Assembly (NCBI GenBank): GCA_018398765.1
Contig: JAHBMJ010004672.1
Location: forward strand, 6,502 to 70,501
Origin: Chromera velia
Lineage: Eukaryota; Sar; Chromeraceae
Length of the DNA stretch: 64,000 nt
Direction of reading: 5' to 3'
Shown: positions 37-48,080 of the stretch, piece after piece
How positions within the stretch are numbered: position 1 is the stretch's first letter
Layout of the letters: each line of letters starts with the position of its first letter
Position numbers and translations under genes: made by a program
The notes under the pieces: model-generated
Database searches by the model: none
Told to the model about the DNA's origin: nothing
Seen by the model: only the letters and a program-made list of their open reading frames with translations

Positions 37-2570
37 ATCTGTCTTCTCTTCAGCAGGTGCGATGCCCTGATGACTCCCGTGATCAGAAACGTAGAGTCCA
101 CCCCCCCCGCCACAGGGAAGCTCTTTGGTGTTCCCAGACAGCACGTCTGTCTGGTTGCACACCCTGAGGACTGTCACAACAGTGCCAAGAGGCGCAAGAT
201 GGTGACGGGGACGAAGACAGACTCCAAGCACACGTTCTCCCTCTCTGACTGGCTCACTCGCTCTCTGGCTGCCGCCATTCCTTCCCAAGTGACGGAAATC
301 GGGAGCTTCGGGAAAGAATTGGTCAAGGCCATCACCGAGCTCCATCAGTCCCACGCAAACGCCGTTCGCACCCTTGCCGTTGTCTTCGCTCAGGAGACGG
401 CACAGGAAAGGGCATTTGAGGCGAAATTCGGACAGCGCTCCTCTGACTGGGTTGACGAGGACGAGAACGAAGAATTTGGAATTGAAGATCTCTTGGCAGA
501 TGACACCGAACAAATGGCTTCTGGGCCCATTGGTTCGAATCGTTCGGCTTCCCTGGTCCGACATGTGGAATCGTTCCTTTCTCAGAGGGACGAGTTCTCT
601 TCTGAAGAGGGAGAGGAAGACGTGGAAGAGGCAGAAGACGAAGAGGACGATAACGAGAACGATGCAGATCTCGACATCTTCCCTGAAGGCTCTGCTGCCC
701 GTGCAGCTGCGATTCGGGCCCACTGGATTCTGACCCAAACCGACAAGGACCAAGACAAGGAGACGGATTCTGTCCAGACGATTCATCGGATGGCACAGGG
801 AGACGTGAAGAAAGTGTCTCAAGGTCCTCCCAGCTTCCTTCAGATTGGTGCCTCCACTGGTGCCGAGACCATGGTGAACGCTTCCGTGCTTTATTCTGTC
901 ACCGGAAAGTCTGCACAGCACCTCCGAGCCTACTCGACTGAGGAGCTTTCCTTCCTCTCGGGACAAGCCGAAGGTGACAGCGCGGCCTTTTGGCTCCAGG
1001 TTCTTCAGTGGGACTCTGAGGAGGGCTTTGGAGCCATGATGGGCCTCGGGGGAGAGAAATCGAAGTTCCGCGTGGACGGAAGTTCCCCGTCTCCGGGTGC
1101 GATGAATTTGACCTTGTTGGAGAAATCGAAATTGGACCAGATCGCCGGACACATGCACATGCTGGTACGGTCTTCTGCGATGGCAAAGCATCTGGCTCGA
1201 GACGCGGCGAAGGAGAAGATGATGAGGCAGAAAAAGCACAAACACGGGGAGGATGATGATGACAGCGAAGCCTACGAGAATCTTGTGCCTGAGCCCACAT
1301 TCAAGGAGCAGGTGTCGGAATTTGTTGATGTGATGAAGAGTACCTGGGAGTTTCTTTTTATGCTCCCGGACTCTTTGCTGGCCTCATCTGGTCTAATGGG
1401 ATTCGTCCAGACACTTCTACAGGTCTGTCTGTCTGGCCGGTCGTCCTTTCTCTCTCTCTGTCTCTTTGTCTGTGTTTCCGTCCGTCCTTTTTGACTCGCC
1501 AGTCAGAGGAACGAAAACAAAGTTTTTTCTCTGATGCTGCCTGCCTCTGTCTGCAATTCCATCCGTCACGTGGCTTGAGCGGGCGCATCTCTGGACTGTC
1601 TGGTCCGTTTCCTTTCCGTTGCTCGAGCGTCCCTTTCTGTTCTCTCCTTCCGCATCTTTGCCGTCGTTCATCTTCCCCATCGTCTCTGCGTCTTTCCTCC
1701 CCCCCCTCTCTGTCACAGATTCCGGGCGTCTTCAAAAGACTCTGGAACACTCTCAAATCTGCCCCAAGAAAGCTGGTGGCTCAGGTGAAGAAGGTGAAGA
1801 AGCTGTTCATCGACATCTTCAAGCTCTTCGGCCTCCTCGCGAGGGGAGGGATCAAACTGGTCGTTGGCGAATTCGGCTCCAAGGTCGACGCGACAGTGAC
1901 CAAGGCTCAGATGCGTCTGGCCGGTGTGTATCCTCGTTCAGCCTTGAAGGTGGCAGAGGTGCCTGAGCAGGTGAAAGAGTCGATTTCCATGGCCGTCTCT
2001 GTGTTCTATCAGAAGATCATTGCGTCTCCTGCCAAGCAATTGGTAGCGGAGATCATGGATTTGTGGCTCCGTTTCCAGAACGCTCTCCTTCAGGCGATTC
2101 GTCACACCAAGGACATTTTCCGTCCCTTCTTCGACGGCATCAGCATCTCTGACTTCTTTGGGCTCGGCAAGAGGATCATGAAGGCCTGGCAGTCCATGGG
2201 TGAGATCCCCCCTGCATTGAAAGCATTCACGGACGGGATCAAGTCCTTGAAGGAGGAGAGTTACGACATTGAGCCTATCTTCGGTACCGTCTCCGACGCC
2301 CTCCAGTTCTTCATCCGTCTCCTCATGTTCCCTGAGGATCCTGAGCAGAACGTGAGATCCATGCTCGGGTGGTCTCAGCAGGTGCGAGATGTGGCGGAGA
2401 TGATCAAGGACAAACACGCGGACATCGTGACAGACGGAAAGGTCGAGGGAGACAATTGCCTCTTTGAGAGACTGTTGATGGACTGTGAGCACAAGAGCCT
2501 GTTAGACCAGCTCTCCGAAGCGACTCTGGGCACATGCGGGCGTTGCACTCTTAGGGCCAGGGATCCGAAG
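37..2570 (+). other. N-terminal visible region of giant protein 1: acidic and helical, Cys-poor
   Basis: Exons 1 and 2 encode a largely helical, Cys-poor region. An acidic run of Glu/Asp residues lies at about 598-670. Exon 1 ends in a hydrophobic segment (about 1340-1422, rich in Phe, Leu and Met). Exon 2 opens with a Lys/Phe/Leu amphipathic stretch ([20 protein letters not shown], about 1785-1845) and continues as amphipathic helices to about 2450, then a short Cys cluster (CGRC). I do not recognise a family. The Cys-poor helical composition sets it apart from the Cys-rich modules downstream. It could be a coiled or membrane-associating part of the same protein. Confidence 0.5.
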
Positions 2571-4465
2571 GTCGGTACCTCTCCGTCTCCCTGTCTCTCT
2601 GTCTCTGTCTCCCGTCTTTCTTCTCCCCGCCCCTCCCACAGCCGCCATTTCTCTCCCGGCATCTACTTGCTGTTTCTGCTTCTTTTTTTTCCTCCAGTAC
2701 TGTAAGCCTTCTCTCTGCCACACTTTTTTCCAACGGTCTGGCGTTCTCTCGTCAAGAAACGAACGAGAAGAGACAGAGTGATTCACCTTTTCGTTTTCCC
2801 CCTCCTTCCCCGAACCGTTCCATCTGTCGATTGGGTGTCTCTCAGTCTCTGTGTCTGTCGGATTTTCTGGTTTGCCAAGGAGAGCCAAGAAAACAAAACA
2901 ACGGCATTACTCGGTCTCTCTCCTTCCTCTGATACCTGCAGAAGGTCTACGTTGGAGCCACTCCATCAGTTCCCCGTCTCGAGTACGCCTCTGGCAGCAT
3001 GCTGAAGGCCACCTGCAGAGACGAGCGCTACGTGATGTACAAGAAAGACGGCGGGTTTGCCCTGAAAGGTCTGGCCATGGATGTCTCCTGCGTTGACGGC
3101 AACTGGGTCGACTCGGAAGGGAATCCTGGGCTGACCGGAGTGGAGTGCGCTGCTGTGGTGCAGGTCGGGACGAAGAATCTGTCCCCTCTGAAATCCTCAG
3201 CAAAGGAACACCTGTACTTCATGAACACCGTCCCTGTGGCTGCATACGGTGAGAGTTCGGTAAGAGATTTCCATGCCTTTGTGATGGGTGGAGGGTCTGT
3301 GCCTGGTCTCTCATCTGCAGTTTCCGATGGCGTCTTCTCAGCTCTGATTGGGCAGGCAGGAGTCCTTCCTCCTCCCTTCAACATTGCCCCTTTGTACGTG
3401 AAGGTGGCAAAGAGCACAACTGCATTCGGATTGGTAACCTCCGAGGCGGCTTGTGTGACACGCTCAGTCCTCGGAGGTTTCACTCGATCTGAGCTGTCTT
3501 TGGGGAGCATTTGCGACTTTGATGGTGACACGGGGGGTGGCAGTGGGAGTCTCTTTAGCTCCAAGACGTTCCAGTCGGGGTTCTTGGGGGCGTTGGAGAA
3601 TGACGTCGAGACGGGAATGGCAGACGCTTACCACAACGACCCTGAGTTGGCGTTGGACGTTTTTGACATTGACATGAGGGGCTCTCCCACGATCACGAAT
3701 GATCTGCAAGGTCTCGGTTTGAGCAAGGGCAAGCCTTCGAGTTTCTTTCAACTGGGAGCGAGTGTACGAGCTCTGAGTGGGAAGGCATTGCTACAGAAGT
3801 CCCTCGAGAGGGCCAACAGAACGCTCACAGCCTCAGAAGCCGACCACAGCGCGATGCACATGGACGTCTACTCCCACCTTCTCACTGCGGAGGAGAGGGA
3901 CCGACTTGACGCTGCCGCCCTTCTCCAACTGGCAGCGCTGCATCACCGTGCTGAGTTCAAGGAGGCGATGGTTGAGATGCGATCGGTGCAGGCATCCGAC
4001 GGCAGTTTCATCATGTCCGATGCTGCTCGTCTGGAGCTCGAGGTCGGCATGGGGGGCATGTCGGGGTCCTTGATCAAGCGCGCCCTGATTTCGGGAGGAG
4101 TCCCGGCTGGTGTGGTGAACATGCACACAGGTGCGAACATCAAGACAGCCTTTTCCGAGCAGCTGGGAGTGAATCTGGGGGGAGACGCCCGATTTGAGGG
4201 ACTCTTCGAGAGTGTCAGTCAGTCTGTCTGCCTGTCTGCACTTCATGCAATGAGTAGCAAAGCAAGACAATTTGAATTTCCAGTGGATTAGTACATGAAG
4301 GCAGAGAGCGAAGAAGTGCAGAACAGAGGCAAACGGAATTAGATCCCCCTCTTTACCTTGCCCCTTCCTCACCTCAAGAAGAAGGTCCTCGCAAATACTC
4401 TTATCTGGGAAACGTGATCTTCTTTTGTGTGTCTGCCTCATCCTCCGTCTACAAACACAACTGTA

Positions 4466-4507
<42 letters not shown>

Positions 4508-5549
4508 TGTATGACTCTACCCGGTGTGTTTTTGTTTCCTTGCTCTTTTGCAGATGGCGGAGACGGCGTCGCAGATCCGAAAGGTCGAGTCGGAGTTGCA
4601 CGCCTCCACAAATTCCTCGAAGGGGGAGACGGCTGAGGGCCCTCCGCACAAGCTGAGTCTCGCGTTTGCGTGCAGCATGCGACACTGGTCCCCTCAGGAG
4701 TGGGATCTGATCCTGGCAGAGGCCCCAGAGTCCGAGAAGGAAATTGGGCCCCATGGGTTGATGGGAAAGGTGTCCGGTGCAGACATGCACGAAATGATGG
4801 AGGCGTTCTTTGAGTGGGTTCTGGAGACAGAACGAGACGGGTCTGTGGGACATAATTCTGAGTGTTGGAAAGAGGACGGAGGAATGGTTCTGTTCTCTCC
4901 GCAGACACTGTTGAGCTTGATGAAGGAGGAGGAGACGGAAGATCTTGTGAAGACAGAGAAGGAAAATCAGGAGCAGCCCATGTCGCTTTTGGTGGTGAAC
5001 AGATACACCCCGGATGGGACTGGGATGGAGCAGGTCACCGCGATGACCTTGGGGACAGGAGCTGCCAATATGGCCTCGATGAAAATATTCAAGAAAATCG
5101 GAAACTTTTTCAAAAACTTTTTCAAGAAAATTAAAAATGTCATCAAAAGTGCCAAAACAATTTTCAAAGTCTTCACAGGCAAGTGGGGTGGCTTACTGAA
5201 GAAAGGTCTGGGGTTGTTCGGGAAAGCGATGACGATTGTCAAGGAGACGTTTGAGAAGTTGAAGACATTGGAATTCGTCCAAATCTGCCAGGCGATCGTC
5301 GAGGGCGTTTTCGGCATTTTGGAGGCATATGACAATATCTTCAACTACTTGGTCTTGATCAAAAATATCGTTGCCCTGATGTTCAACAAGCACATGAGAT
5401 TGATCATACGTTCCTTGATGCTCCTTATTCCTGGGCTTGCTACTCCTTCGAAGCTCCTGTTCATAATCATTGAAGTCATCCGGCTTTGGTTCCCTTCGGG
5501 GGTACGTGCATGCATGGGGGTCTTCTTTCTTGTTCCGTTTCTTTCCTTC

Positions 5550-5580
<31 letters not shown>

Positions 5581-8500
5581 TTTTTTTTCTCGCTTTTTAC
5601 TTTTCTGTGTTTGCCTGTGGGTTGGGTCTCCTATCTTTCTGTGTTCTTTCTTTGTACACGTCGTTCTTCGCTCCCTCTCCTTGTCTATTTGTCTGTCTCT
5701 CTGGCCGCCTTTTTGCTTATTCGCCTTTTTTTCTTTTCGTCTTCTTTGCTTCTTTCCCCCCTACCCACGCGTCTCTAGAATCTTGGGTTGCTGTTTTTCT
5801 ACATGCTTGCGTCAGTTTCCTTTTCCCTTCATCTGCCTGCATCCTGTGCCACTCTCCCCCTTCCTCCTGATCCTTCCTGTTCCTTGAATGCATGCATGCA
5901 GGTGGAACCAACGAATGCGGAGGTCGAGGAGGAGCTCCCAGTGGAGGGAACGTTCTTCGCTCCCTTCCGGACCGACGGTTCTGGTGTCAACGGACTCCTC
6001 TACCTCCCCCCCAAGGTCGGTCCCCTGCCTGCATCAGCAGAGAGAGAGAGAGAGAGAGACAGAGAGCAGAAATGCGAAAGAATGCTTTCCTGAGCTCCGT
6101 GCTTGCTTGCTCGCTTTCCTCCTTTTCTTTCTTCCATCGTGCTTCCCTCCTTCGCTCCGAGCAAAATGACACAGACGGAATGAACGATAGGGTCATCGAG
6201 AATGCAGGGCAGAACTTGAGATCGGATTCGTTCCTCATTAAAAAAATGTCGTTTTTTTCTCTCGGGTCTTCTCCTTTCCAAAAGTGACAGAGAAAAGAAA
6301 GGTCCCATGGGTTGACCCTCCGTCTCGTTTCCTGATCAAAGCGTCCACTTACTTGCGTTTCTGGTGTTTGTTGGTGTGATCACAGTCGGACTCCACTCTG
6401 AGTCACTCACTGGATGGAGACTTCGACGAATCGAGTCAGTCAGTACTGGCTCACTCACTTTGCTGTGTACTCGCTCGTGTTCACTTCATGCCCAACTCTG
6501 GCTGTCCACATGCAGTAAGAAAAGGGCGGTTCGTTTTGAAAGGATTCTCGTCCGTATTTTTTGATCGATGTCCTTCCTCCTCTCCTTCTAGCCTGGGGGG
6601 TTCTCCGGATGGGTTTGCACTCTGTTGGTCCTTGACCTTCCTTTCTGCTGTCCGGTCTGCCCGCATTCTGAAAGCCCCCTTTTGCACAATGTTATGTTGC
6701 TTCTCCCTGCACGACGTACCTTGTGCTGTACCTGGTCGCTTTCCTGCCTGCAGAGTGTCTGTACCACGACGTGAAGTTTGTCGGCAAGAAGCTGAGCGAA
6801 GAGGAAGTGCTCGCATGTGAGTCTGTCTGGTTTGGTTTGCTATGGGTGGGCTGTTGGGGGAATGATGTTCTGGAATCAACACAAAAGGCTCTACAGAGAC
6901 GCGACTTGCCAGGCAGATTGAGAGAGAAGAACAAAAGCGCGACAGGCAGACAGGCCGAAAGACTGACAGACAGTTTTCTTGCCAGCTTCCCCTCTCTCTG
7001 TGTCTCTCTCTCTTTGAGTGTGTGTCTGTGTCTGCGTGCAATCTCTCCTTCCTTCCCTCCCTCCCTCCTTCCTCCCTCCCTCCCTCCTTCCTTCCTTCAG
7101 GATTTTTTTCTGTTTTCCTCCCTTCGCTTCCCTTCGTTCCTTCCCTGCTTTCTCTCTGTCTTCCGTCCGTCCTTTCTTTCTTTCTTTCTTTCTTTTTTTT
7201 TTCTTTCTTTCTTTTTTTTTTTTTCTTTCTTTCTTTCTTTCTTGCTTTCTTTCTTTCTTTCTTTCTCCTTTTTTCTGTCTCCCTTTCTCTGCTTTTCTTT
7301 GTTCCTTCTGTGCATTTTCCCTTGGCTGATTAGGTCTTTCTGAACTCATTTGAAAGGAAAATCGTGAACGGAGGTCTAGTTGTTTGCATTCGTGAGCTTT
7401 CCCTTTTCCTATTTTCGAACTTGGACTGACTGCGTCTGCAACTAGTTACCGTTTTCCTTTTTTTAATTGTTGGTTTTGCGTGCAGCCACCCCCGAGGAGG
7501 ATGAGTCGGAGAAATGGCACTGCAAACCAACCACCAACTTGGAGGGTGACGTGTCAGTCGCACCCCTAGTCTTTCCAGCTCTCTCTGGTTATTTTCTCTG
7601 TCATTGCTGCTTCATTCAAGAATCTGTCTTCCGCGTCTGTTCGGATCCTCCCATTCTTTCAAGGTGTGGGTGGATTGTCCTTACTTTTCGTGTTTCCATC
7701 AGATTCCCCTTGGAGACGCACGTCGCTACGTACGTATTCGTTCCTGTCTTTCGGTTCGGTTTTGCTGTCTAGAAGGAGAAAAACAAAGAGGAGAAGTCAA
7801 TCGGTGCGTTGCTTGTCATAATTCTGAGAAGCAGTCGAAAGGAGACGTAAACGCGCTTCCCTCTTCCCCAAAAATCACTGGTTCCCCTTGCAGAAGAGTT
7901 TATTCTCGGAATTGTCAGGCCCTTTTTTTAATGACGTCTGATTCGTACCGTCATGCATTCTTTTGAAGCCATATGATGAACATGAGGATGCCTCAATGTT
8001 TTTGCAGCTACGTTCTGTTGAAGAAGGAGTGTGATGCTTCAGGCGAGATGTGTTTTGCCACTCTGAAGCAACGAGACGCCCTCAAGCATTGGTGGCTCAA
8101 ACACAACTGGTTCAAAAACGGGTACAGCAAAAATCCTGGTTCCTACTACGGCTACTGCAGAACATGGGACTCACTCAGCGATTGTGAAGCTGCCCGAACA
8201 GGCAGAAATTCCGCACACACCCTGAGCCAGGCGAAGACGATTACGTGTGGGAAGGACATGACGAAGATGCATACCATCACAGGTATTTACACCTACTCCA
8301 CTTTGATGGATGCAATCAAGAAGCGCGTCACGAATCACTGCGGTAAAACCTGCCCTGCTGAGTCCAAGAAGGGGGCCACGGAACAGGATGAGTATGAGAA
8401 GCACAAGGAGTGCAAGAAAACATGCGAGAAGTCCACCAGGTGCCACTACGTCACCATCACCCCTGCCGGGGAGGATGAGGTCACGTGCACTTACTTCGAG

Positions 8501-20500: not shown

Positions 20501-23452
20501 GTTCTCTCCTGTGTCTTTGTTCACTCGTCCACGGCCGGTCTCTCCAGTCGAACTGATCGGCCGCGGAGAAGAAGACACCGTCACAAGCAGAACAAGCATG
20601 AAGAAAGCAAGAAAAGACCAGAGGAGAGGGAGAGATTTTCGTTCCTTTCCAGGGAAGCAGGTTGAGAGAGCAGACTGCCAGAGACTGATTCTTCTTCCCC
20701 TTGTGAGTGAATGAGTGATTGCAGAAGAGCAGACCGAATATCTCCTCGACGACGAAGTCTTCCTCAACCCAAAAGACATCCCGAAAACCGACGAATATCT
20801 CGTGAAGGGTCCCTGCGGATTCCCCAGAAAGGGCATCAGCAAACGTCTGCCTGCTGCCTTCTCGACTCAGGAGGCACCCGTGTCCTTCTCCCTTCTGCAA
20901 CAGCAGCAAGAGAGCAGCAGCCATGCACACTCTCATGTGCAAGACGGCGCAGGGGCAGCAGAGGAGGGTGGGCCGAAAACGACACTCCTGCATCAGTCAG
21001 ACACCCACACAGCCGCGCATGTGGAGACTGAGGGTGAGGGTGTTGCCACAGGCGTGGTGGAAGGCCACTCGCACGACTCGCGGAAGAGTGGGGTGGCAAA
21101 ATCCAATTGGGAAGGCTACAGGAAGACCGAGAAGACCACACCATCCTGCCAGCCCGCCGGGGGGGAGAAGACGGCAATTGATGAGCTCACCCAGTTCCCT
21201 ATGTCATGCTCTGCTTCTGAAGGATATTTGAACACGGTGCAATTGATGAGTCAGGTGGGGTCTAAGTGTCCCGTGAAGAAAACGAAGATGAGTTGGGAGT
21301 GTGCCCGCAATTGGAAGAGAGGCGATTGCTTTGAGCAGGAGATCTCTGGCAAGACCGTCCCTGTTCCCCAACCGAAATCACGCCGACTGTTCCGATTCTT
21401 CAAAAACAAATTCCGCAAAACAAAGGAAGAGCCTCTCCAGATTGGCTCTCTGGAGAAGCTAGACTCCCGCATCCAGTGCCCAGCCGGTGCTGCCCTGACA
21501 TCCATTCGTATTGAGGAGACAACGAAAGTGTCTCTGCTTGAGGAAGAGCATGAGCACGAGTGGCGGTTCTTCAGGAGAATCGTCAGAGCGGTCAAGAAGG
21601 TTGTCCAGAAGATAGTTCATGTCTTCAAACCCAAACCCCCTCCTCCAGTCCCCCGCCAACCCGCTCCAAGGTACTACAAGATCATCTACCAGTGCTGTCT
21701 GAACCGAGGAATCTTCACAGGTGCCGAGGCCAGGTTTAATCTCCCGACTGAAACCGTCACCACGGACTGGGTCAACGTCAAAGGTGTGTCTCTGCTGTCT
21801 CTCTGTCTGTCTCATTCCCAGGAGAGAAGGGAAAGAATTTAGAGATCGTCTGGAAAGCGTGTGGAGCAGTGGGCATTTTGCAGTTCTTTTCACTTTGTGT
21901 GCTTTCTGTTGCTGCCCAAACGTCATCTCCTTTCCATACGAAGGATTCCATTTCGAACCATGTCTCTGTTCCGGTATCCCTTCGGATGAAGTGCTTCGAA
22001 GATAGGGTCGGCAGACACGAAGACGGATGCACGCACACGCACTCCACTCACACGCGGACAGAGGTCGCGTGCATGACCTGTTCTTTCTTCTCTTTATTTG
22101 CCTGACTGCTTGACTGCAGGTAAACCTCTGGAGACGATGTCCAGCCTTCGGGCAGAATGCTCGGACGAAATGAGAGTCATGACCGGGTGGGTCAGTGGAA
22201 GAGCTAGGGGGAGTCAGGAGGTTTCCCTGCAGGCAAAAAGAGAGATCTCTCTCCTCGGCCACTCCTCAGTCTGCATTCACTGATCTCTGCTTGTGTGCCG
22301 CCTCTGCTTTTCCTCCCAAGTGTGGTCGCTCTGGCATTTTGCTCGTGTCCCGCTCTCGTTTCTTGCCGCGAAGCTGTGAAGGGCTCTTTTCATTCTTTCT
22401 CTTTGAAACTCGCTCGACGCCCTTCTCATCAAATGAATGAACTGCAAACACTTTCACTTGTGTGCTAAGACCTCAGTGAGACTGAACCCTTGATTGAATA
22501 TTTAAATGCGTGCGAGCTTTCAGGCTCCAATTCCAAGTCCGTAACCACAGGGACCTCCGAATGAAGGCCACGTGCCAGCCGATAGAGAGAGGAGTCGATG
22601 GAGGCTATTCTGAGTGGACACCCTGGAGCCCCTGTTCCCTCTCCTGCCAGTCTCTCCGTTTCCGTTCGTGCACAAACCCCCGGCCTTCCAGGGGGGGCAT
22701 GCCCTGTCCTGATGGAGAGGAGACGGTGCAGGTGAAGCCATGCGACCATGACTGTGTCGTTGGATCCCCGTCAGCTGCCGACCTTCCTCCAATCGGAAAA
22801 GTAGACCCCAACATCGGCCCTGTCTGCGGCTCCTCCACAGGTTTCTTCCTTGCGGGCGCCGCCCAGGAGTCCTGCGGCGTCTCCCAGGGACAGGAGATGG
22901 TCAGGTCCGTGCACACCTGCCGCCTCCCTCTGGATCTCCATGACATGCCCAGCAGGGAGGAGGTGCCCCCGATGCAGTGTAAGGAACACAAGAGCAGATC
23001 GTACAGAAATCTGAAGACTGCGTTGGGATTCGTGGAGTGTCCGGGAACCTCGATCATGGAAAACCTCAGGTGGACAGTCAAGGGAGGAGACACGTTTGTG
23101 CCATTGAAGAATCAGGTCCGTCCGTCCGTTTGTTTGTCTGTCTGTCTGGTCTCTGTCGTCGGGGGAGTGATAGATATTATGTGCGTTCATGCAGTGAGGG
23201 CTTTCTTTTTGCTGGAGCCTGTTTGTGTTTCTTTGCTGGTCACCGTTTTGAGACCATTCCTGGAGATACTATGGATGTGCGCGTGATATCTCACATGTAA
23301 GGAAGAGAGAAAACAAAGAATCTGTCCGGTTAGCGATGGGTCCGGTCCGCAGGCACACGCGCGCCTCCCGACTCTGCCTTTCTCTGAGAGCGTACCTCCT
23401 TGCTCGATGTGCTTTTTGTCGTGTGACCTTGTTTGCATTCTCTCTCTTTCTT

Positions 23453-23524
<72 letters not shown>

Positions 23525-26500
23525 CAGAAGCGCGAGACGACATGCGAGGACTCGGGTTTCCTCGTCCTCCGGTGTCCCCGGAAGAAGTCGGTGAAGATTT
23601 TGGACGCCCACCTCTACGGGCCTGCCGACAAGACCTTGCCCTCCGTGTGCCCCCAGGTGCTCGCAGGGGATGTCGAGGGTCTCCTTGCAGAGGCCGAGGC
23701 AGAGCACGAGGGAATGGGCCAGTGCGACTCTGCGTATGTGAAGGATGCAGTTGCACAACAGTGTAACGGTAGGAGGAGGTGCAAGCTCAAGGCAGACGCG
23801 TCGAATCTGGCGGCTCCCAGATGCGGCGTCGACGGGCTCCGGACTCTGAACGTCCGATACGGCTGCGTGAACAGTGACACGCGGTCTCGAGTTCTGTACT
23901 CATGCTGCGACCTGATCCATGGAGGAGGGAAAGGGAAAGGCAAAAAGGGAAAGAATGGTTCGAAGGCACTGAAGGTGCACAAGGCGAAGAAGGACAAATC
24001 GTCCAACCTCCCTGGAGCAAGGACGCAGATCTTCGAGTCGGCGATCTATCACGCCAAATTCCAGTCGACTTCCTGTTTCCCCAACAGAGACATTGACGAC
24101 CTCGCAGTCGAAAATGCAGACGGAGAGGCTGCAAGTGCGGAGGCACAACAGTCTCCTTACGGGGAACTGGAGTGCCCAGAGGGATTCTTCCTCCAGGTCC
24201 TGTCGTCAACATGCAATTGCTTTCTTCATTCCTAGCTGCCTTTTTTCGTTTTTCTTCCTTTTTCTGTCAATCTGACAGATACACGCGCACTTTTCTTCTT
24301 CGTGTCTTTCCTCTGTTTCTTTCCTTCTCTGCTTTTCGTTCTCTCTTTTTCACCCGACTGCGCTAACAAAGGGCAGCGGGCTCTTGTCAGTCAGTTCAAC
24401 AGATCCGCTTTGGCTTTCCCTCAAAAACTTTGGTGCCGTATTGTTTGCCCGTCTTCTCTCTTTTCTATTTCTCTTAGTTCCTGTCTTTCATCTTTTGCTT
24501 GACAATGAAAGGCTTTCCGCTGGAGGCAATCTCTTCCTTCCTTGATTCGTTTCTCCCTCCTCTAATGCCTGCGCATAAACACCCGTGCTCTTCCCTTCCT
24601 CTCCCCGCCCCTCCCGCCCGTGCAGGGTTACAAGGTCCAGAGGTGCAACAAGAGAGAGAGGAGAATGGCATACAAGTGTGCGCTGATTGACAGACGTCAG
24701 TGAGATAGACTGACTCCAAGTGGAATTTTCATTTGGCTCCGTCCCTTGTGTTCTCACACAAAAGTTCACCTCTCTGTTTGAATTCTTTTGTTTCTCCCCT
24801 GACCATCTTTCGCGAGTGCGCGCCGCCTCTTTATTCTTCTGTTTCTATACGACGCTTCTGTCAATCCTCTTTGCGTGCGTCAGTCCCCATATTTCCTCCT
24901 AGAAGCTGAATGCTGTGTGACTGCCTGATCTCCGTGCGATTTGAACCAACAAGCATCCTTTGCCTTAGCCCCACGATCCCTTCATGATACGCATTCCTGC
25001 ATGCAGGTGGTTGGGTTTCTTACAACACGGCCCCTGTGCATGACGCCTGCGTGGATCCCCTCGCTCTGTCCAGCCAGTTCGCTTTCTCGTGCAACCAGAA
25101 CTCTTTCCTCTCAGACGTTACCTTCCACGGGTGCCTGGACTCCACAAAGAAGGGTGCGTCGGTTGTTTGTTGGTGACTTTGCGTGTTCGTTGGTCCGATG
25201 CACAAACGGAGGCTGTTGGAGGAGACCACTGGCGCACGCACATGCAGATGGCATACACAATGACCGACAGAATGCGACCATACAAAGAGAAAACAAAAAA
25301 TGCTGACAGTCTGACATCAGAAGCACCAGAGAGAGTTCGATGTGAGGATCCTGTCACAGCAACAGCATCACGTTTAGCCTAGATACATGTATCTCTTTTC
25401 TGCACCCGTTTTCCCTCCTCCCTCTGTGTGAGTCTGCAGCTCTTGCTCTGATCGCATCGAGTGCGCGCACATCTCGTCACGAGTCAGACGAGTGGAAGGA
25501 GACGCTCCGAGTGGCAGGGGAGATGGCAGGCGCGTCTTCCTCCACAGGCACGATGAAGGGGTCCTGTGCGGGCATAGAGCTGGACCCTGCAGTGAACGGA
25601 AAGATCCAAAGTCACTGCAAGTCCTTTACAGGGGACTGGTATGACCTTCCGTCCTTTGCAATAGATGGACCGATGCCTCTGACAACTCTTGTGCGCATTC
25701 CGAGCGCGCACTGCCTGCATGATTTCGAAGACGGGGAGGGAAAGAAGTCGGGGGTGATGACAGAGCTGAAGATCGAGAAGTCCTCAGACAGCAGAAAAGC
25801 GAGGTATAAGTACAAGTGCTGCCTGTCCTCCCGTGAGTTCCTCATGGGGCGTGACGCAGAGAAAGAACAGCCCCCGATTATCTACGCCACCACTCAATGC
25901 GCCCCCATTGGCACTCAGTATGTGTCGGAGGTCCCGGAGAAATTGAGTTTCGGGTGCAATGGAGATAAGAGTGGATATGCCCTGACGTCCTTCCAGTTTG
26001 AGCCCTGTGTGCCTGAATCCTGGTGGCAGCCTGCCGGTTGGTACAAGGTGAAGTACACCTGTGGGGCTGCTGACTGGACGAAGCTGGATTCAGAGGCTCT
26101 GCTGTCAGCAGAGGACACAGGCCTTCCTGTTGATGATTCCTTGGACGAGTGCGAGCTGGCAGCAATGGAGTGTGAGGTGCGTCGCGGGCTGGGATTTTGG
26201 GGGGNNNNNNNNNNNNNNNNNNNNNNNNNNNNNNNNNNNNNNNNNNNNNNNNNNNNNNNNNNNNNNNNNNNNNNNNNNNNNNNNNNNNNNNNNNNNNNNN
26301 NNNNNNNNNNNNNNNNNNNNNNNNNNNNNNNNNNNNNNNGGCATGAACTGAGGGAAAGAATAGGGAGGGACCTTCGCAGACCATTGAAGAGTGCAATGGT
26401 GCCACGACTTCCGATAAAGTGACAACAAAAAGATGTCTAGCCAATTTTTCAGTTCTCCCTCCCTTTCTCTTGGGAGGCGGACTGAAGCGCTGCCGTCTTC

Positions 26501-29500
26501 TGATTTTCTTTGTTGCCTTTCCAGCTGCCAATAGTTCTTTTACTGAAACTCTATCTATCGATGTTGCTCTGCGTATGTGGTCCGTCTTGCAGGTGAAGGG
26601 TTCTGACGCCGTGTGGAACGGAAAGAACGCGTGCGAGCAGATGGACGACTGCACGCGTCTGTGCAGAAAGGTGGAAGAGCTCTCGTGCAAGTGGCTTGAG
26701 TGGTCTCTGGGTGTGCAGAGAAAGCCGCGGGTTGGAAGGGGCAAGGGCAGCCTCGCTTCTTCATCCTCTTCTTCGAGAGCCGTCGCTGGAAAGAGACATG
26801 GAGGCAGACACAGGCACCACCACAGGCATCGCCACCAGGTCTGTCAGTCAGTCAGCATTGACGGAAAACGGAAGCTGAAGGAAGAAAGCAGTCGGAGACG
26901 AAGAACGAAAAAAACTGGAAGAGTAGAGAGAGTCAATCCATTCCATTGATGAACGCCCTTCCCCGTGCTTTCTCCCGTCAGACCCTCATGCGAAGGCGCT
27001 TTATCGTTGTTTTGTTCCCATCGCCCGACAAAACCGGATCTCCCGCTCCGTACCCTCTTTCCCCATCTCTCTGCTTTCTTCTTCTCCTCTCCTCTCTTTA
27101 CAGGCGAAGCATCCATCTTCACATCTCCAGGCAGCCCACATGCGGACCTACCACCATCAGCATCGCCGTCACGCAAACAGAGAAGCGACATCTGCCATCT
27201 CCAAGCGCCCCCCCCACCACAGCCACAGCCACAGCCCCTCGAAACCTCTGAAGGGGGCCTCCTCTCCAATTGCTGCATCTGTAGGCGGCAAGGTGGGAGC
27301 ACAGTCCTTGACAGTCACCCGGAGGTCGCACAGACGCTCCACTCACCGCCGTATCCGCAGCCACCGCCGCCGCCGCCACTCTTCGTCCCGCCCTGTGCCC
27401 TCTGATGGTCCTGAAGTTGTTGGCCTCTCTCATCACTCTCACTCGAAGAGGAGAGGAAGGGGAAGAAGAGTTTCAGACGACCCTGAGGAAGAAGAGGAAG
27501 AGGAGGAGGAAGGAGACGAAGAGGAGGAGGAAGAAGAGGAAGAGGAGGAGGACCCGAAAGCCGCGATGGTCGGTTCGATCACCGGTGCGTTCTCTTCCAA
27601 TCCAGGAGATTGGGCAGAGGACATGGAAACCCTCTGGAATTCCACGAAGGATTTGGGGAAGTACACAGGAGAGGCCATGAAAGATTACTGGAACGAGACC
27701 CAGGAGTATTGGGCCAACCTCACCGACAGGTGGGAAGAGGACCCCCTCGGTGCCGCTTTGGAACTGGTTGGCACTGTGCATGGTGCGATTGAGGGCACGA
27801 TCATTGGAGAGATGGCAGAGGATGTTGGAAAGAGGGTGAAGGGAAAGCACGACGACTACAAGAGTGGCAGAGAGTCGGGGGCAAGCTACCGCATGCAAAA
27901 AATGCGGGAGGAAGGGTTTGAGGGAACGGATGAGGAGTTGGAAGAGGCGGTCCGAAGGGAGATGGCGAGGGAGAAGGTTACTGCCGAGAGAGAGAAGGCC
28001 GAGAAAGAGGAGGCGAAGTCAAAGGGTATGAGTGTTGACGAGCTCAGAAAACAGAAGGCCAAGGAGTTAGGTATGACAGATGCCGCCTATGCGCAGAAAT
28101 TGGCGGAGGAAGATGACATCAAGCACATGAAAAATGAGATTGCGGTTGAAGCAAAGAGGGCGGCAGAGAGGCAGAAGGAGGCAGAGAAGGAGGCCGCGAT
28201 CGATGAGCGTGCCGCCGAGTTGAAGGAGAAGAACGGTATGACAGATGAAGAGGCCAGGGCCGAAGCAGAGGCCGAAGCCCAGCGGCGTGCCGAGGCCGGT
28301 GACGCTGCTGCGAAGGCCAAGGGGGAAGAGATTAGTGAGATGTCGCCAGAGGACAAGAAGAAAGCGGCTGCAGAAGCAGGATACCCTGATACTGATGAAG
28401 GTCAATCAGTGCCTGTGCGAGTGAGACGGTGGTGGGGCGAGTGACTGGGTGGGTGAAGGAGTAGGCGGGTGTGTAAGTATGAATGGCTGAAAGGTGTCGG
28501 AAAGGTTTTGTGGGTGGAAGCGAATGCGAGGAAGGGAGCAGGCATGATTGAGTGATCACAGGTGGTCATTTTCCACACGCAAAAGTGCATGTCTTGTCTT
28601 TTCTTCCATCCCTCTTTGCTCTGTATCGCACCCACGTTTTTTTGTCCTCATAGTTGTCTTCCTTCCTTCATTCCCCCTTTCCCCTCTCTCTCTCTCTCTC
28701 TCTCTCTCTTTGTCTGCGAAGAAAAAGAGGGAGAAGAAGAAGAAACATATAGTCTGTCTGTCTGTCTGTGTGTGTGAGCGTATGTTTCAGGAAGGAAGGC
28801 CTGGGAGGAGGATGAGAAGAGGAAGGCGGGAGATCAGGCAGAGAGGGACCGACAGTTGAAGGAAGACGTCGCAGCCGCGAGGGCGAAACGCGACGGTGTG
28901 ACGAAAGAGCAGGCCTTGAAGGAGATGGCGGCGGAGGAAAAGACAGCTGCAGAAACCATTGCGAAGGAAAACGAAAAGAGAAAGAAGAACGGTCAGGATC
29001 TTATGACTCCAGAGGAAGAGGACGCAGCCAGGATCTATGCAGAGGCAGAGACACAGAAAAAGAAGAATGCAGATGCCACAGCCGAAAGAATAAAGCAGGA
29101 GAAGGCGGCTGATAAGTACAATGCCGACAAGCAAGGTGTGTCTGTCGAGGTTTATCGTGAGCAAGAGGCGAAAAAGTTGGGGTGTGACACCGGTGCACAG
29201 CCCGAATGCCTTGACCGAAAGAGGGCTGAAGCGGCTGCGGCAAAGCAGGCAGACAGAGAGAAGGCATACCAAGATGAGAAAAGCAGCGCAGAGCAGAAGA
29301 AAAAAGATTGGGATGCCAAAGAGAAACAGGCCGATGACGATGAGAAGAAGTTGCGGGAGGTGGAGGCACAGGGAGGTGACACGCAAGACGCTGCAGAGAA
29401 GCAGCTAGTAGATAACAACCCCGAGGTAAAGAAAGAGGAGGACAATATGAGTCCGGAAGAGAAAGCGGAAGCAGACAAGGCCAAGAAAGCAGATGAAGAG

Positions 29501-30633
29501 GCCTTAGAGAAGGAGGCAAAGATGAAAAAGGACGAGGCACAGGAATCCTTCGCCTTCGAGTCATCGATGGAAAAGAAGGATGATGATGATGATAAGGATA
29601 AGAAGAAGGAAGGGGAGGACGACAAAGACAAAGATAAGAAAGAGGGGGATGATAAGGACAAGAAAGATGACACTGATACAAAGAAAGACGACGATAAGAA
29701 GGATGATGACAAGAAAGACAACGACAAGAAAGATAACGACAAAAACGACAATGACAAGAAAGACAAAGATAAGAAGGACAATGACAAGAAGCCGAGCAGT
29801 GGAGGAGGGAAGAACGATGACAAATCGTCTCGCAAGAGAGGCGACTCGACACCCGGGTGAGTCTCTCAATCAGGGAGCGAGAGAGAGGCAGGCGGTGGGG
29901 TGCATGGGTTTGGGTTCCTTTTGGTTTCTGTCAGTTTTGTTTTTCCTCGCCTATCCTCGATGGTCGGCTGTCCTCGTTCTGCGCTTCCGCGTTTCCCTTT
30001 CTCTGTGTTACAACCATCTCTTCCCTGTCTTTCGCGGGTTTAGATGAATGCTTTTTGCATGTTCATTTTTATCTCCTTCCCTGACCCTGCGGAGGGAAGG
30101 GAGACCTCACCTCTTCTTGCATGCTCTTGTAGCTCTTTTGGCATCCTTTCTCTCGTCAGGCCGTCTCTCTATACACTGATTTGTGTTGGATCGACCAGTA
30201 TTCCTCTCTGTCGAATTGTTTTCCTTTTCCCTTGTCTGCCTGTCTCTCTCCCTGTGAGCATGAATGCGTGTGTGAGTGAGCTCTTGTTTTGTATTCTCTC
30301 TGCTGTGCAGGTATCAAAAGGATACCGTCTCCTCTGCCGCAAAGAAGAGAGACAAAGTGAGTTCCCCCGGCGGCACCTCGAGCAAGGACAGAAAGAAGGA
30401 CTCCAAGAAGGCGAACAAGAAGAAGAACAAAAGCAAAAGCGGAAGCTCGTCGTCGTCGTCGAAGAAGAAAAAGTGCAAACTCTTCTTGTCAGTCAGTCCG
30501 TCAGTCAGTGAAGCAGCAGATTCGGCCATCTTGCCTCTTTTTTGTACATTAGCCTCTGCGAATTTGAAACTCGGGGGTGACCCTGACACTCGTGTGTGCT
30601 CAGTTGTGACACATGGAGCAGCACGCACACACA

Positions 30634-30682
<49 letters not shown>

Positions 30683-30985
30683 GGATGTGTCTTGCCTACC
30701 GGCTTCTCACGCTTGTTTTGTGAGTCCGACAAGGAAAGTGTGGGAAGCCGATACGTTTTGTTCAGGGTTTTTTTCTCTCTAGAGACCGCTCTCTCTCAAA
30801 CTCGGACCTACGCACGCACACACACACACACACACCTTCCTGCCGTCTGATAGGTAATGTGCGCCTTTGATTTCGACTGTGCGTCTGCGTTTTGTGTTTC
30901 TTGTTTGTGCAGTGAGACGGGCAGCAAGAGGAGGCGCCTCGACGGCGACCACCCGAGCTTCCTCCAATTCCCTCAGTTCTGCTGA
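37..30985 (+). CDS. Giant modular extracellular-type protein, 5' partial, 27 exons
   Basis: Exons: 37-1422, 1719-2570, 2942-4213, 4554-5501, 5902-6019, 6754-6816, 7486-7552, 8008-8558, 8938-10052, 10286-15188, 15513-16039, 16259-16410, 16680-16960, 17318-17899, 18212-20347, 20725-21783, 22120-22186, 22524-23115, 23528-24196, 24626-24695, 25007-25153, 25440-26176, 26593-26838, 27104-28400, 28791-29856, 30311-30487, 30913-30985. All introns are GT-AG and phases agree at every junction, giving about 7,050 codons with one terminal TGA. The exon 5/6 boundary could instead be 6015/6756, also in frame, and the first exon might begin at 57. The start lies upstream of the window. The assembly gap falls in intron 22, so an exon could be hidden there. 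Domains seen: SUEL lectin, TSP1, dermatopontin-like Cys modules and highly charged tails. This suggests a secreted adhesive or structural scaffold (inference). Splitting into two genes is not excluded, but no internal stop or break in phase supports it. Confidence 0.75.
2942..4213 (+). other. Exon 3: sushi-like Cys segment followed by helical region
   Basis: The exon opens with a Cys-bearing segment of about 70 residues in which a Tyr/Gly/Ser stretch precedes LKATC, then VSCVDGNWV and GLTGVEC. That order resembles a sushi/CCP repeat (C...C.dG.W....C), but spacing is loose and I hold this at low confidence. The rest (about 3170-4213) is Ala/Ser/Leu-rich and probably helical. The exon is phase 0 at both ends; its donor at 4214 begins a GTCAGTCAGTCTGTCTG run. 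Confidence 0.4.
4469..4512. repeat. (GT)n microsatellite in intron 3 of giant gene 1
   Basis: About 20 GT units interrupted by an A. It lies about 40 bases upstream of the acceptor of exon 4. Confidence 0.95.
4554..5501 (+). other. Exon 4: Phe/Lys amphipathic helix and hydrophobic segment
   Basis: After an acidic first half, residues from about 5079 switch to a strongly patterned Phe/Lys/Ile region ([20 protein letters not shown] and on to about 5210), then Leu/Ile/Val-rich segments at about 5290-5500 including [13 protein letters not shown] and [12 protein letters not shown]. The first looks like a cationic amphipathic helix. The second is hydrophobic enough to be a membrane segment. This is the best membrane-interacting candidate in the visible part of the protein. 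Exon phase is 0-0. Confidence 0.45.
5545..5592. repeat. (CTTT)n microsatellite in intron 4
   Basis: A pyrimidine-only tract of TTTC units ending in a T run, inside the intron between exons 4 and 5. Nearby 5600-5890 stays strongly pyrimidine-rich. Confidence 0.9.
7047..7268. repeat. Pyrimidine-only (TTCC/TTTC)n tract in intron 6
   Basis: About 220 bases almost wholly C and T on the + strand, made of CCTT, CCCT and CTTT units. It has no coding value. It produces long spurious ORFs on both strands. Confidence 0.9.
8008..10052 (+). other. Exons 8-9: Cys-rich region opening the Cys-module part
   Basis: Exon 8 (8008-8558) encodes about 15 cysteines in 184 residues with Lys/His-rich spacers. Exon 9 (8938-10052) contains HTCCGGG near 9508-9528 and a clear module at about 9818-9920: CPEGQ, a hydrophobic strand, then LTCCAVS. 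These are the first instances of the C-P-x-G ... C-C pattern that recurs through exons 10 to 22. Exon 8 joins exon 9 in phase 1. Exon 9 ends in phase 0 at 10052, followed by a GTCAGTCAGTCAGTGAGT donor run. I recognise no named family for exon 8. Confidence 0.5.
10286..14560 (+). other. Exon 10 first part: long acidic helical region with TPEP repeats
   Basis: Exon 10 is 4,903 bases long, very large for this gene. After a Cys-bearing start it holds a Pro/Glu-rich linker (about 10500-10800), then some 900 residues of Glu/Ser/Ala/Arg-rich sequence that reads as helical or coiled-coil (about 11000-13700). At about 13795-14020 there is an imperfect tandem repeat of two related units, TPEPDTE and [11 protein letters not shown], with at least six TPEP occurrences. 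Such acidic Pro repeats usually form an extended spacer. No catalytic motif is visible. Confidence 0.5.
14600..17899 (+). other. Dermatopontin-like Cys modules, exons 10 (end) to 14
   Basis: A recurring module can be read here: Cys, a Gly-turn, a hydrophobic strand such as FLSGF or AMTAL, a spacer of variable length, then an aromatic/hydrophobic strand ending in Cys-Cys or Cys-Ala. Copies lie at about 15055-15189, 15717-15820, 16004-16039 continuing at 16340-16380 across intron 11, 16759-16867, 17338-17467, 17587-17685 and 17773-17899. The layout (Gly, LxGF strand, then a W/F/Y-x-[FY]-x-C-C strand) resembles the repeat of the extracellular-matrix protein dermatopontin. That likeness is from memory and unverified. 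Exons 10 and 14 both end in phase 1 just after a Y/F-x-C-[TA]-[FY] motif. Confidence 0.5.
18829..19450 (+). other. Two tandem SUEL/galactose-binding-lectin-like domains (exon 15)
   Basis: The first domain (about 18829-19060) shows [16 protein letters not shown], then a Cys, then [14 protein letters not shown], then [10 protein letters not shown]. The second (about 19090-19445) shows [18 protein letters not shown], a Ser/Thr/Glu-rich insertion, then CDRKTRCIF and IEYIC. This order (L.CP.G..I.I..A.Y, C.....C, final strand ending in Cys) is the signature of the SUEL-type rhamnose/galactose-binding lectin family. The second copy is interrupted by an insertion and may not be functional. The domains suggest carbohydrate binding outside the cell. 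Both lie within the 2,136-base exon 15. Confidence 0.6.
19460..21783 (+). other. Exons 15 (end) and 16: further Cys modules plus basic segments
   Basis: Exon 15 continues with Cys modules of the C-P...C-C type at about 19593-19700, 20016-20118 and 20233-20347, the last ending in FECAYVDFG just before a phase 1 donor. Exon 16 (20725-21783) has a module at about 21204-21310, a basic Phe/Arg/Lys segment at about 21376-21430 ([15 protein letters not shown]), and a module at about 21475-21705. That last module is interrupted by a second cationic helix ([18 protein letters not shown]) and a Pro-rich linker before it closes with IIYQCC. The cationic segments echo exon 4. Confidence 0.45.
22600..22755 (+). 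other. Thrombospondin type 1 (TSP1) domain
   Basis: Within exon 18 the reading frame gives [16 protein letters not shown], then [17 protein letters not shown], and a closing KPCDHDC. This is the TSP1 signature: W-x-x-W-S-x-C-S-x-x-C, R-x-R-x-C, and six cysteines. TSP1 domains bind glycosaminoglycans and cell-surface ligands and are typical of secreted adhesins, notably in apicomplexan parasites and their relatives. The WSxC motif could be C-mannosylated or O-fucosylated in organisms that have those enzymes. It is the only TSP1 copy I see in the window. Confidence 0.85.
23459..23522. repeat. (TC)n(TG)n compound microsatellite before exon 19
   Basis: About 15 TC units are followed directly by about 15 TG units, ending in the acceptor of exon 19 (GTGCAG, 23522-23527). 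The repeat therefore supplies the polypyrimidine tract. Confidence 0.95.
23528..23869 (+). other. SUEL/galactose-binding-lectin-like domain (exon 19)
   Basis: The exon begins in phase 0 with [17 protein letters not shown], followed by [10 protein letters not shown], a Cys pair, [14 protein letters not shown] and LNVRYGC. All landmarks of the SUEL-type lectin family appear in order: C..g.L.L.CP, I.I..A.YG, the V...C.G...C.v.A block, and the final L.V.Y.C strand. This is the clearest of the three lectin-like domains in the protein. It lies about 260 residues after the TSP1 domain. Downstream in the same exon (about 23926-24010) there is a Gly/Lys-rich basic linker. Confidence 0.75.
24171..26176 (+). 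other. Exons 19 (end)-22: last Cys modules before the charged tail
   Basis: Small exons 20 (24626-24695) and 21 (25007-25153) and exon 22 (25440-26176) complete the Cys-module array. ECPEGFFLQ at the end of exon 19 continues in exon 20 as a strand ending MAYKCALID. Exon 21 has [17 protein letters not shown]. Exon 22 holds two full modules at about 25746-25830 (YKYKCC) and 25950-26080 ([11 protein letters not shown] and YKVKYTCG). Modules being split by introns at different places shows that module and exon borders do not coincide here, unlike in the second giant gene. Confidence 0.55.
26205..26339. other. Assembly gap (run of N)
   Basis: 135 undetermined bases lie in the intron between exons 22 and 23 of giant gene 1. 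The flanking exons join in phase 0 without it, so the gap need not hide coding sequence, but a phase 0-0 exon inside it cannot be excluded. Confidence 0.99.
28686..28710. repeat. (TC)n microsatellite in intron 24
   Basis: A TC run in the intron between exons 24 and 25, followed by a GAAGAA-rich stretch and (TGTC)n. A similar TC + GAAGAA + CTGT arrangement recurs in introns of the second giant gene at about 47260-47345. Confidence 0.85.
30626..30681. repeat. (CA)n(GA)n compound microsatellite in intron 26
   Basis: A CA run (30626-30651) passes into a GA run (to 30681) in the last intron of giant gene 1; another short CA run lies at about 30813-30833. Confidence 0.9.
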
Positions 30986-35789: not shown

Positions 35790-36223
35790 ATGGCGCGGCC
35801 ATGCAATGGCAGCCGAGCATTGATGAAACCTTGGATGGAACTTTGTCTCGCAATCATGCCCCGCAAACGGTCCGTTGACTCTGACTCTTTTCTCTCTGTA
35901 TGGATGATGGTCCTGCAGATGCTCTTTGCATATCTGTCACGAAAAGGAGAGGAAACAATAGGAGACTGGAAGTCACGATTCAATTTTTGATCGGAGACGG
36001 CCGGGATGGAGACGGGAGATGACAGCCGGCCGGGAGACTCACGCATGGGTCTGCGTGGCGCGGGGGCCGCGGGGCCGCGGGGGGGGGCAGAGTCCGTGCG
36101 AGGGCCGGTCGGTGGCGTCCTCGGCCGGGACTCAGGCTGTCGAATGGCTGTCGATGGGCGTCGAAGTGCCGTCTACACTGTACCGGCAGTGACCAATGCA
36201 AAAGACTTGAAGGCTTCTCGCAG

Positions 36224-43269: not shown

Positions 43270-43605
43270 ATGCCAAGTTGGACCCTTGTGTGGTGGAACA
43301 GCGGGGAACGGCATGCCGTGGAGTCCCAACAAGGGGAGTCTCTGGGTGATTTCCTGCAGAGAAAGTTCAAGGCATCCCCACAGGACCTCCAGCCGATACG
43401 TTTCTGTGTGGCGAATACAGAGGTGCCAACAGACAGAAAGGGCGCTTTCCTCATGTTCCGACCTGAATACGCACCAGGGGAGGGAGAGGAGGTCATCATT
43501 CGCACAGGGACTTTCTTTGCAGAGGCTCACACACGCACTGGCACAGACCTGACAGACAGCGACCGGGAACGCATAAAACCGTGGATGCAGTTTCTGTCGT
43601 TCTGA
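43270..43605 (+). CDS. Small hypothetical protein, 111 residues
   Basis: An ATG-initiated frame with balanced, protein-like composition (MPSWTLVWWNSGERHAVE at the start, several Trp and Phe, few low-complexity runs), unlike the composition-driven ORFs around it. It has no signal peptide, membrane segment or motif I recognise. It ends in TGA just before the long pyrimidine tract. It could be a small gene, or the last exon or relic of a larger one. The evidence is only composition and the intact frame. Confidence 0.45.
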   Translation: MPSWTLVWWNSGERHAVESQQGESLGDFLQRKFKASPQDLQPIRFCVANTEVPTDRKGAFLMFRPEYAPGEGEEVIIRTGTFFAEAHTRTGTDLTDSDRERIKPWMQFLSF

Positions 43606-43683
43606 AGTATATATATGAACAGAAGCAGTTTCTCGGAAAGAGATCGTTTGAATGCTGTTGAAATGATAGAAATTGTCGATTCG

Positions 43684-46958: not shown

Positions 46959-46997
<39 letters not shown>

Positions 46998-47259: not shown

Positions 47260-47299
<40 letters not shown>

Positions 47300-48047: not shown

Positions 48048-48080
<33 letters not shown>

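Follow-up and report, generated by a model that had tools for sequence, protein, structure and literature searches.

A predicted giant secreted protein of Chromera velia, encoded by one of about six collinear genes

Does one gene run from position 37 to position 30,985 of this 64,000-nucleotide stretch of Chromera velia DNA (the window; bases 6,502-70,501 of a 78,890-base contig), and what kind of protein would it encode? The initial annotation, made from the letters of the window, proposed a single gene of 27 exons and about 7,050 codons, ending in one TGA and lacking its 5' end, for a secreted or surface protein with TSP1, SUEL lectin and unrecognized Cys modules, and drew from these the inference of a "titan-sized scaffold". 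We find that the gene is real and well supported by comparison with its relatives, with corrections to its exons. Its product is likely a secreted protein of about 8,000 residues, one of about six paralogues, that would form glycan-binding extracellular material. The paralogues, the part of the protein upstream of the window and a set of recurring S[FL][FLV]Q tetrapeptides go beyond the initial annotation.

Gene model and collinear copies

The evidence that carries this answer is comparative. In the genome searched (177.8 Mb in 4,040 contigs), an exon-4 probe matches five further contigs, and up to 40 kb of each paralogue locus was examined (the whole of C1162 and parts of the other four). When the joined product is compared by tblastn, its blocks appear in the same order on all five contigs. 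The collinear chains cover 5,358 of 6,990 residues in C1162, 4,006 in C594, 6,061 in C2302, 6,001 in C3643 and 5,425 in C2193, at mean identities of 39.7 to 46.5%. The C1162 and C594 copies are cut by their contig ends, and the three copies not shortened in this way span about 34-40 kb. A second probe, exon 23, finds six loci (the window contig, C2193, C3643, C1162, C2302 and C3471); six loci with each of the two probes is a lower bound. The C594 copy ends near residue 4,090, and C3471 is matched by an exon-16 probe in the second half of exon 16 only. These may be two halves of one copy, which would bring the total to six, and we estimate a family of about six genes, each with a predicted product of about 8,000 residues. 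The exon-4 equivalent of the C594 copy (L005) carries an in-frame TAG, and this paralogue may be decaying or misassembled. Among the alignments used below, A1, A4 and A5 are without C594, all are without C3471, and A6 consists of three copies.

The gene models come from a semi-Markov gene finder, in which a codon-phase Markov model and splice matrices trained on the open frames of the window are combined in a dynamic-programming parse. The first parse gives a single plus-strand gene down to the TGA at 30,985, with 33 exons and 6,936 codons including the stop; retraining changes this to 31 exons and 6,991 codons. After correction, 30 exons remain, which encode 7,006 residues, plus the stop, when counted from base 1. 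Positions 1-36 (12 residues) are assigned to an intron, the acceptor at 36/37 coincides with a paralogue exon start, and the supported piece at 37-30,985 has 6,994 residues. The single gene and its stop stand as first proposed, by the parse and by the collinear copies, while the original exon and codon counts were close and are replaced by these. A 48-base intron and a micro-exon at 15,984-16,039 in the first models are false, the segment being coding in C594. A stop at 29,860 (frame ...STPG) was considered as the true end since the C3643 model also terminates there; we reject it, as the two later exons and the tail are present in C2302 and an equivalent of exon 29 can be seen in the DNA of C3643.

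In the 31-exon model, at least one paralogue match covers at least half of the exon for 25 of the 31 exons, and for 21 of the 30 introns, the false one among them, a paralogue match is interrupted at the same place. The exons without such a match are 6386-6434, 6754-6816, 7486-7552, 26778-26842, 27104-27292 and 30913-30985. The last of these was recovered through a separate comparison with C2302, and the first three have counterparts in the same order and of the same length modulo 3 among the predicted small exons of C594 (all three) and C1162 (the first). DNA-level paralogue alignments (E below 1e-6) reach 13 of 30 exons and 2 of 29 introns, a rough contrast, given the greater mean length of exons. 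When the first model is made to break into two genes at any one of its 32 introns, the parse loses between 7.4 and 53.8 nats, a start penalty of 7 included, and the weakest point is the intron at 23,116-23,527. The comparative evidence is a stronger argument for one gene than these costs, and we regard one gene as near-certain because collinear copies lie on five other contigs. The donors of the 29 introns are GTC in 18 cases, GTG in 11 and GTA in none; this GTC preference is partly circular, the matrix being self-trained, and partly compositional (the window has 1177 GTC, 1332 GTG, 851 GTT and 404 GTA).

The 5' end is indeed missing, as first noted: the 6,501 bases that precede the window are N. 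Upstream of residue 1 of the window copy, the copies have in common about 1,000 further residues, as estimated from gene models. The first exon of C1162 reads MSRALLWWTSCLLSLTLSGCVSLSVSG (L016, minus strand, ATG at 1962), and a frame upstream in C594 reads MSSSLFVKLLLVAPLAVSAGA; by inspection, made without a predictor, both are apparent signal peptides. In C1162, this start precedes the point that matches exon 1 of the window copy by about 5.6 kb, and a comparable start for the window copy would fit inside the unread 6.5 kb. At the other end, the C-terminal exon and its tail are kept in C2302, the sole copy where they are visible. From the upstream residues and the kept C-terminal exon, we therefore put the complete product at about 8,000 residues; the earlier figure of more than 7,000 was right in calling the protein giant and fell short of its length and of its multiplicity. 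Few secreted proteins are known to reach such a length. For Chromera itself, a modular fatty-acid synthase of more than 11,000 residues has been reported (PMC4501334).

Modules of the predicted product

Across all aligned copies, 177 of the 202 aligned cysteines are invariant. Identity between paralogues is 95% for cysteine and 76% for tryptophan, and at most 63% for all other residue types. As sequence patterns go, this is one typical of disulfide-bonded extracellular proteins, and with the two apparent signal peptides it supports the earlier suggestion that the protein is secreted. In a hydropathy scan of the copies, we find no conserved transmembrane segment near the C-terminus or between the Cys-rich region and the coiled coil.

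The TSP1 and SUEL assignments are upheld by one domain of each above its Pfam cut-off. TSP1 (PF00090) scores 24.4 bits on exon 19 alone, above the cut-off of 21.6, and 17.6 bits, below it, in a longer piece; it is matched at E up to 0.1 in all five members scanned (the window copy and four paralogues). The TSP1 exon also matches many solved TSP1 chains, with 6ool as the best (E 6.7e-18). The third SUEL domain (PF02140) scores 39.5 bits in the window copy, with a cut-off of 31.4, and its five-copy profile matches the L-rhamnose-binding lectin chain 5h4s (E 0.00011). SUEL-like domains 1 and 2 are below the Pfam cut-off (16.4 bits in the window copy). A genome-wide SUEL search gives 15 matches, and of this family only the window copy is over the cut-off; C3643 has 26.9 bits and the other copies are unlisted. 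Stronger SUEL matches lie elsewhere in the genome, on contigs C3885, C723, C3959, C3915, C3172 and C1, several of them paired on one contig.

Other families remain below threshold. In paralogue sequence upstream of the window's part, these are PAN/Apple modules (PAN_4 at 0.017, PAN_1 at 0.031, MANEC at 0.0016) and, in upstream pieces of two copies, the Ig-like He_PIG (0.042 and 0.11). No other Pfam family is over its cut-off in the pieces scanned, where small exons and some joins were outside the scan and the Cys-region piece follows the first gene model. A paired Cys module recurs within the window copy: residues 4207-4278 match 5984-6067 (E 8.5e-7), and 3835-3914 match 6025-6110 (E 4.7e-6), the best of 866 comparisons, with E-values per single comparison. 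Four window copies of the module align with six invariant cysteines; alignment A3 leaves out the badly aligned exon-17 repeat, one of five. A dermatopontin identity of the Cys modules is not supported. Dermatopontin is not among the Pfam families at E up to 0.5, and the exon-23 profile has no match among solved structures (the best, nitric oxide synthase at 0.24, we judge to be chance). A tandem duplication of exons 1-2 and 3-4, likely by eye, is rejected on profile comparison. The conserved hydrophobic stretch of exon 4 also exceeds the hydropathy threshold in C3643 and C1162, and in none of the remaining three copies. In two or three copies, exons 27-28 make up a coiled-coil-like, charged tail.

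Linker tetrapeptides and readings of the product

In its linkers (TETRAPEPTIDES), the window copy contains S[FL][FLV]Q six times, where local shuffles give 0.46 (0/2,000), for a pattern picked after seeing the data. Of the 22 paralogue windows that are informative around these six sites, 10 have the form S[FL][FLVMI][QE], where linker-matched positions give a mean of 0.93 (0/2,000 controls), and 11 have the looser S[FLIVM].[QE], with 3.17 expected (8/2,000). By site, S[FL][FLVMI][QE] is held by two paralogue copies at 278, three at 1025, two at 3116, three at 5071 and none at 4633. The last, C-terminal site has no aligned paralogue window; the motif is nonetheless kept in C2302. When the 400 x[FL][FLV]y pairs are ranked, S..Q comes first, with 6 against 0.55 in the window copy and 16 against 2.85 over six rows, which are mutually related. 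Observed and expected counts of S[FL][FLV]Q in single copies are 2 and 0.71 for C3643, 2 and 0.40 for C594, 3 and 0.42 for C1162, and 4 and 0.50 for C2193. Four further proteins predicted in the window (4,851 codons), taken as controls, lack S[FL][FLV][QE] and hold S[FLIVM].[QE] seven times.

As a sequence, S[FL][FLV]Q resembles SΦXE (Φ, hydrophobic), the consensus reported for rhoptry precursor cleavage in Toxoplasma (PMC5595437), with Q in place of E. In the same report, ASP3 cleaved peptides of ROP1 (SFVE) and ROP13 (SFTE), and the authors saw no obvious overall consensus. For RON8, an SFLQ close to its extreme C-terminus has been put forward as a candidate cleavage site (PMC3053350). In the C. 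velia genome we find 20 pepsin-family matches on 11 contigs; the C. velia enzymes that PMC8540915 names belong to clade B, with no enzyme named for clade C, that of ASP3.

The reading that we favor is that the product would enter the secretory pathway and fold oxidatively into disulfide-bonded modules, that its lectin and TSP1 parts would bind glycans outside the cell, and that it would act there as matrix, wall, extrusome or adhesion material. With less confidence, the product may be a precursor that is cleaved at the S[FL][FLV][QE] sites recurring in its linkers and, more speculatively, such cuts might free pieces from a regulated secretory organelle.

Several observations weigh against this reading. 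Support for the gene and its product comes from DNA sequence. Some paralogue matches contain stop codons (one in C2302, two in C1162, one in C594, none in C3643 and C2193), which we ascribe to intron read-through or decay. The predicted exons 26778-26842 and 27104-27292 are without paralogue support, and hydrophobic runs lie in untranslated frames around 26778-27292, which leaves room for an overlooked short membrane segment. For the window copy itself, any signal peptide falls outside the readable sequence. Sugar binding is not assured, given the SUEL scores of the family. As for the tetrapeptides, a strict test on low-conservation linkers finds S..Q kept in 4 of 18 windows, where some pairs with a single site are higher (AE 3/5, GM 3/3, TE 2/4), and the motif is not enriched in each copy singly (1 against 0.60 in C2302). 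SΦXE as published is no commoner in the window copy than expected (13 against 12.8), and the excess of the broad SΦX[EQ] is weak (24 against 18.6, reached by 222 of 2,000 shuffles).

These counts bear on how far the product is cut. It is possible, if unlikely, that it is a stable wall or cyst protein of purely structural function that stays uncut, and in which the tetrapeptides serve otherwise, for example in binding. The repeated Cys-rich modules and the charged tail would suit such a protein, as would the lack of enrichment of SΦXE, while the recurrence of the tetrapeptides in variable linkers and the lectin and TSP1 modules, more typical of adhesion, speak against it without deciding the matter. 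The opposite proposal is that giant proproteins of a free-living photosynthetic alveolate are cut at S-Φ-Φ-[Q/E] sites by a pepsin-family maturase, giving adhesive and helical pieces for extrusome- or microneme-like release, in which case the maturation system of apical organelles would predate parasitism. This we hold to be doubtful, and we keep its odds low because SΦXE is not enriched and the C. velia enzymes named in PMC8540915 are placed in another clade.

The remaining alternatives concern the gene itself or single parts of it. It is improbable that the product is a membrane-active secreted protein, in which exons 2-4 would form an amphipathic and hydrophobic helical unit that inserts into membranes under lectin targeting: the exon-4 hydrophobic stretch aligns in all six rows and is over the hydropathy threshold in three, but the pieces scanned match no pore-forming family, exons 2 and 4 have no detectable mutual relationship, and helical bundles are common. 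That a gene finder favoring long frames has merged several adjacent smaller genes is very improbable. Some forced splits are cheap (7.4 to about 11 nats at first-model introns 21, 23, 24, 27 and 31); against this, the same block order at five paralogous loci and the last exon kept in C2302 would require a conserved cluster of neighboring genes. Membership in the "CAST multi-domain" family, reportedly amplified among the chromerids, has only the slightest chance of being right. That family is described as Cys-rich outside, with one transmembrane segment and a cytoplasmic coiled coil (PMC4501334), and was compared by this description only; the giant family shares its Cys-rich region followed by a coiled-coil-like tail and its multi-copy state, but has no conserved transmembrane segment between the two. 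A secreted, glycan-binding, multi-copy giant remains the reading that we prefer.

Window neighbors, known systems and meaning

In Table 1, we collect the features of the giant gene. Elsewhere in the window, a second large predicted gene of 27 exons lies at 46235-63966 (plus strand) and may extend past the window. It has repeated EGF_3 matches (3e-10 and 1.2e-7 in two exons), which adjoin a module some 200 residues long that starts PPSDIG..TWTKD; in those two exons Pfam gives nothing above cut-off for this module. A SelA-like pyridoxal-phosphate (PLP) enzyme at 34533-35936 on the minus strand (Pfam SelA 2.3e-7, over cut-off) separates the giant gene from two ankyrin-repeat open frames. The ankyrin frames are on opposite strands, at 36023-37987 (plus) and 40869-42329 (minus), with N-terminal regions that look alike by eye. 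Microsatellites of GT and CTTT type are seen by eye in introns or between genes at 4460-4515, 5540-5590, 7160-7290 and 43600-43900. The genome has 58 light-harvesting (PF00504) and 11 alveolin (PF12314) matches, as would be expected of a photosynthetic alveolate; the alveolin control search also matched one bacterium.

Table 1. Coordinates in the window of the exons, domains and motifs of the giant gene
Feature	Position	Strand	Evidence
Exon 1 of readable part; opens with end of PAN-like module	37..1422	+	Gene-finder models; 5/5 paralogues
Exon 2, conserved helical-looking module	1719..2570	+	5/5 paralogues
Exon 3	2942..4213	+	5/5 paralogues
Exon 4, amphipathic helices and conserved hydrophobic stretch	4554..5474	+	5/5 paralogues
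Conserved hydrophobic stretch	5343..5474	+	Only one above hydropathy threshold in window product
Exon 5	5902..6015	+	4/5 paralogues
Exon 6, small	6386..6434	+	Gene finder; similar small exons in C1162, C594 models; no tblastn match
Exon 7, small	6754..6816	+	Gene finder; similar small exon in C594 model; no tblastn match
Exon 8, small	7486..7552	+	Gene finder; similar small exon in C594 model; no tblastn match
Exon 9, Cys-rich	7969..8558	+	4/5 paralogues
Exon 10, Cys-rich (end 10076 in first model)	8938..10052	+	4/5 paralogues
Exon 11, long, best conserved block of the family	10286..15188	+	5/5 paralogues; 66% identity, residues 2251-2500
Exon 12	15513..16039	+	Continuous in C594 model; corrected model
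Exon 13	16259..16410	+	3/5 paralogues
Exon 14	16680..16960	+	2/5 paralogues
Exon 15, paired Cys module	17318..17899	+	4/5 paralogues; internal repeat
Exon 16, two weak SUEL-like domains and paired Cys module	18212..20347	+	4/5 paralogues
SUEL lectin-like domain 1, divergent	18829..19062	+	Pfam SUEL 0.012 in window copy; best 8.1e-7 among 3 copies scanned
SUEL lectin-like domain 2, divergent, with insert	19108..19449	+	Latrophilin-like 8suf, E 0.00068; stretch assigned by inspection
Exon 17	20725..21783	+	4/5 paralogues
Exon 18	22120..22186	+	2/5 paralogues
Exon 19, TSP1	22524..23115	+	4/5 paralogues
TSP1 domain	22606..22755	+	Pfam TSP_1 24.4 bits, cut-off 21.6
Exon 20, SUEL lectin	23528..24196	+	4/5 paralogues
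SUEL lectin domain 3	23537..23875	+	Pfam 7.4e-10, 39.5 bits, cut-off 31.4; 5h4s
Exon 21, small	24626..24677	+	1/5 paralogues
Exon 22	25007..25153	+	3/5 paralogues
Exon 23, paired Cys module (about 25559-26077)	25440..26176	+	4/5 paralogues; six genomic loci
Assembly gap within intron	26205..26339	.	Sequence
Exon 24	26593..26710	+	2/5 paralogues
Predicted exon 25, uncertain	26778..26842	+	Gene finder only
Predicted exon 26, uncertain	27104..27292	+	Gene finder only
Exon 27, acidic, coiled-coil-like	27449..28420	+	3/5 paralogues
Exon 28, charged coiled-coil-like tail	28799..29856	+	2/5 paralogues
Exon 29	30311..30487	+	C2302 copy
Exon 30 and stop	30913..30985	+	C2302 copy has matching tail, then stop
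SFLQ motif	832..843	+	Motif statistics; paralogue windows
SFFQ motif	3740..3751	+	Motif statistics; paralogue windows
SLLQ motif	13166..13177	+	Motif statistics; paralogue windows
SFVQ motif	19198..19209	+	Motif statistics; in no paralogue window
SLLQ motif	20889..20900	+	Motif statistics; paralogue windows
SFLQ motif, C-terminal tail	30956..30967	+	Motif statistics; kept in C2302

Several known systems share some of these properties. The ASP3-matured rhoptry and rhoptry-neck precursors of Toxoplasma (PMC5595437) likewise have S-hydrophobic-X-[E/Q] tetrapeptides in a secreted precursor, and the giant family, like RON8 with its suggested site (PMC3053350), has a candidate near the extreme C-terminus. 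The giant differs from them in having Q for the consensus E, about 8,000 residues and lectin and TSP1 modules, and no sequence relationship is shown; chromerids are reported as not appearing to possess rhoptries (PMC4501334). The TSP1 microneme-like proteins of apicomplexans and chromerids described there combine TSP1 and carbohydrate-binding modules in secreted multidomain proteins, as here. By sequence, domain 3 of the giant belongs to the SUEL family, with the rhamnose-binding lectins and the latrophilin lectin domains, but the giant holds single modules within a huge protein, two of the three divergent. The cysteine repeat modular proteins (CRMPs) are large and Cys-rich, are said to be numerous in Chromera, and in some cases have an Ig-like He_PIG (PMC9815656). 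They have a conserved core with transmembrane domains, of which we find none in the giant family, and EGF, kringle and ephrin-receptor-like families have no Pfam match in the giant-gene pieces scanned.

PMC4501334 reports secreted proteins with TSP1 and sugar-binding domains, a DERM domain on MacPerf proteins and the CAST family; its text on extracellular proteins makes no mention of the domain order, size or multi-copy state seen here, which its figures or supplements could hold. Among the matches listed for chromerid extracellular, lectin, TSP1, giant and rhoptry proteins (titles and abstract openings), the family is not described, and for Chromera together with SUEL no publication was found. 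Public annotation may well already contain models of the individual genes. As far as we have seen, the architecture of the family is apparently undescribed; it is partly made of known modules, and much of the protein matches no known family.

Block order is preserved throughout the family of about six, over about 34-40 kb in the three copies that contig ends do not shorten. Should the linker tetrapeptides prove to be cleavage sites, an apicomplexan relative that lives by photosynthesis may already have used a form of the maturation signal with which the parasites arm their invasion organelles.

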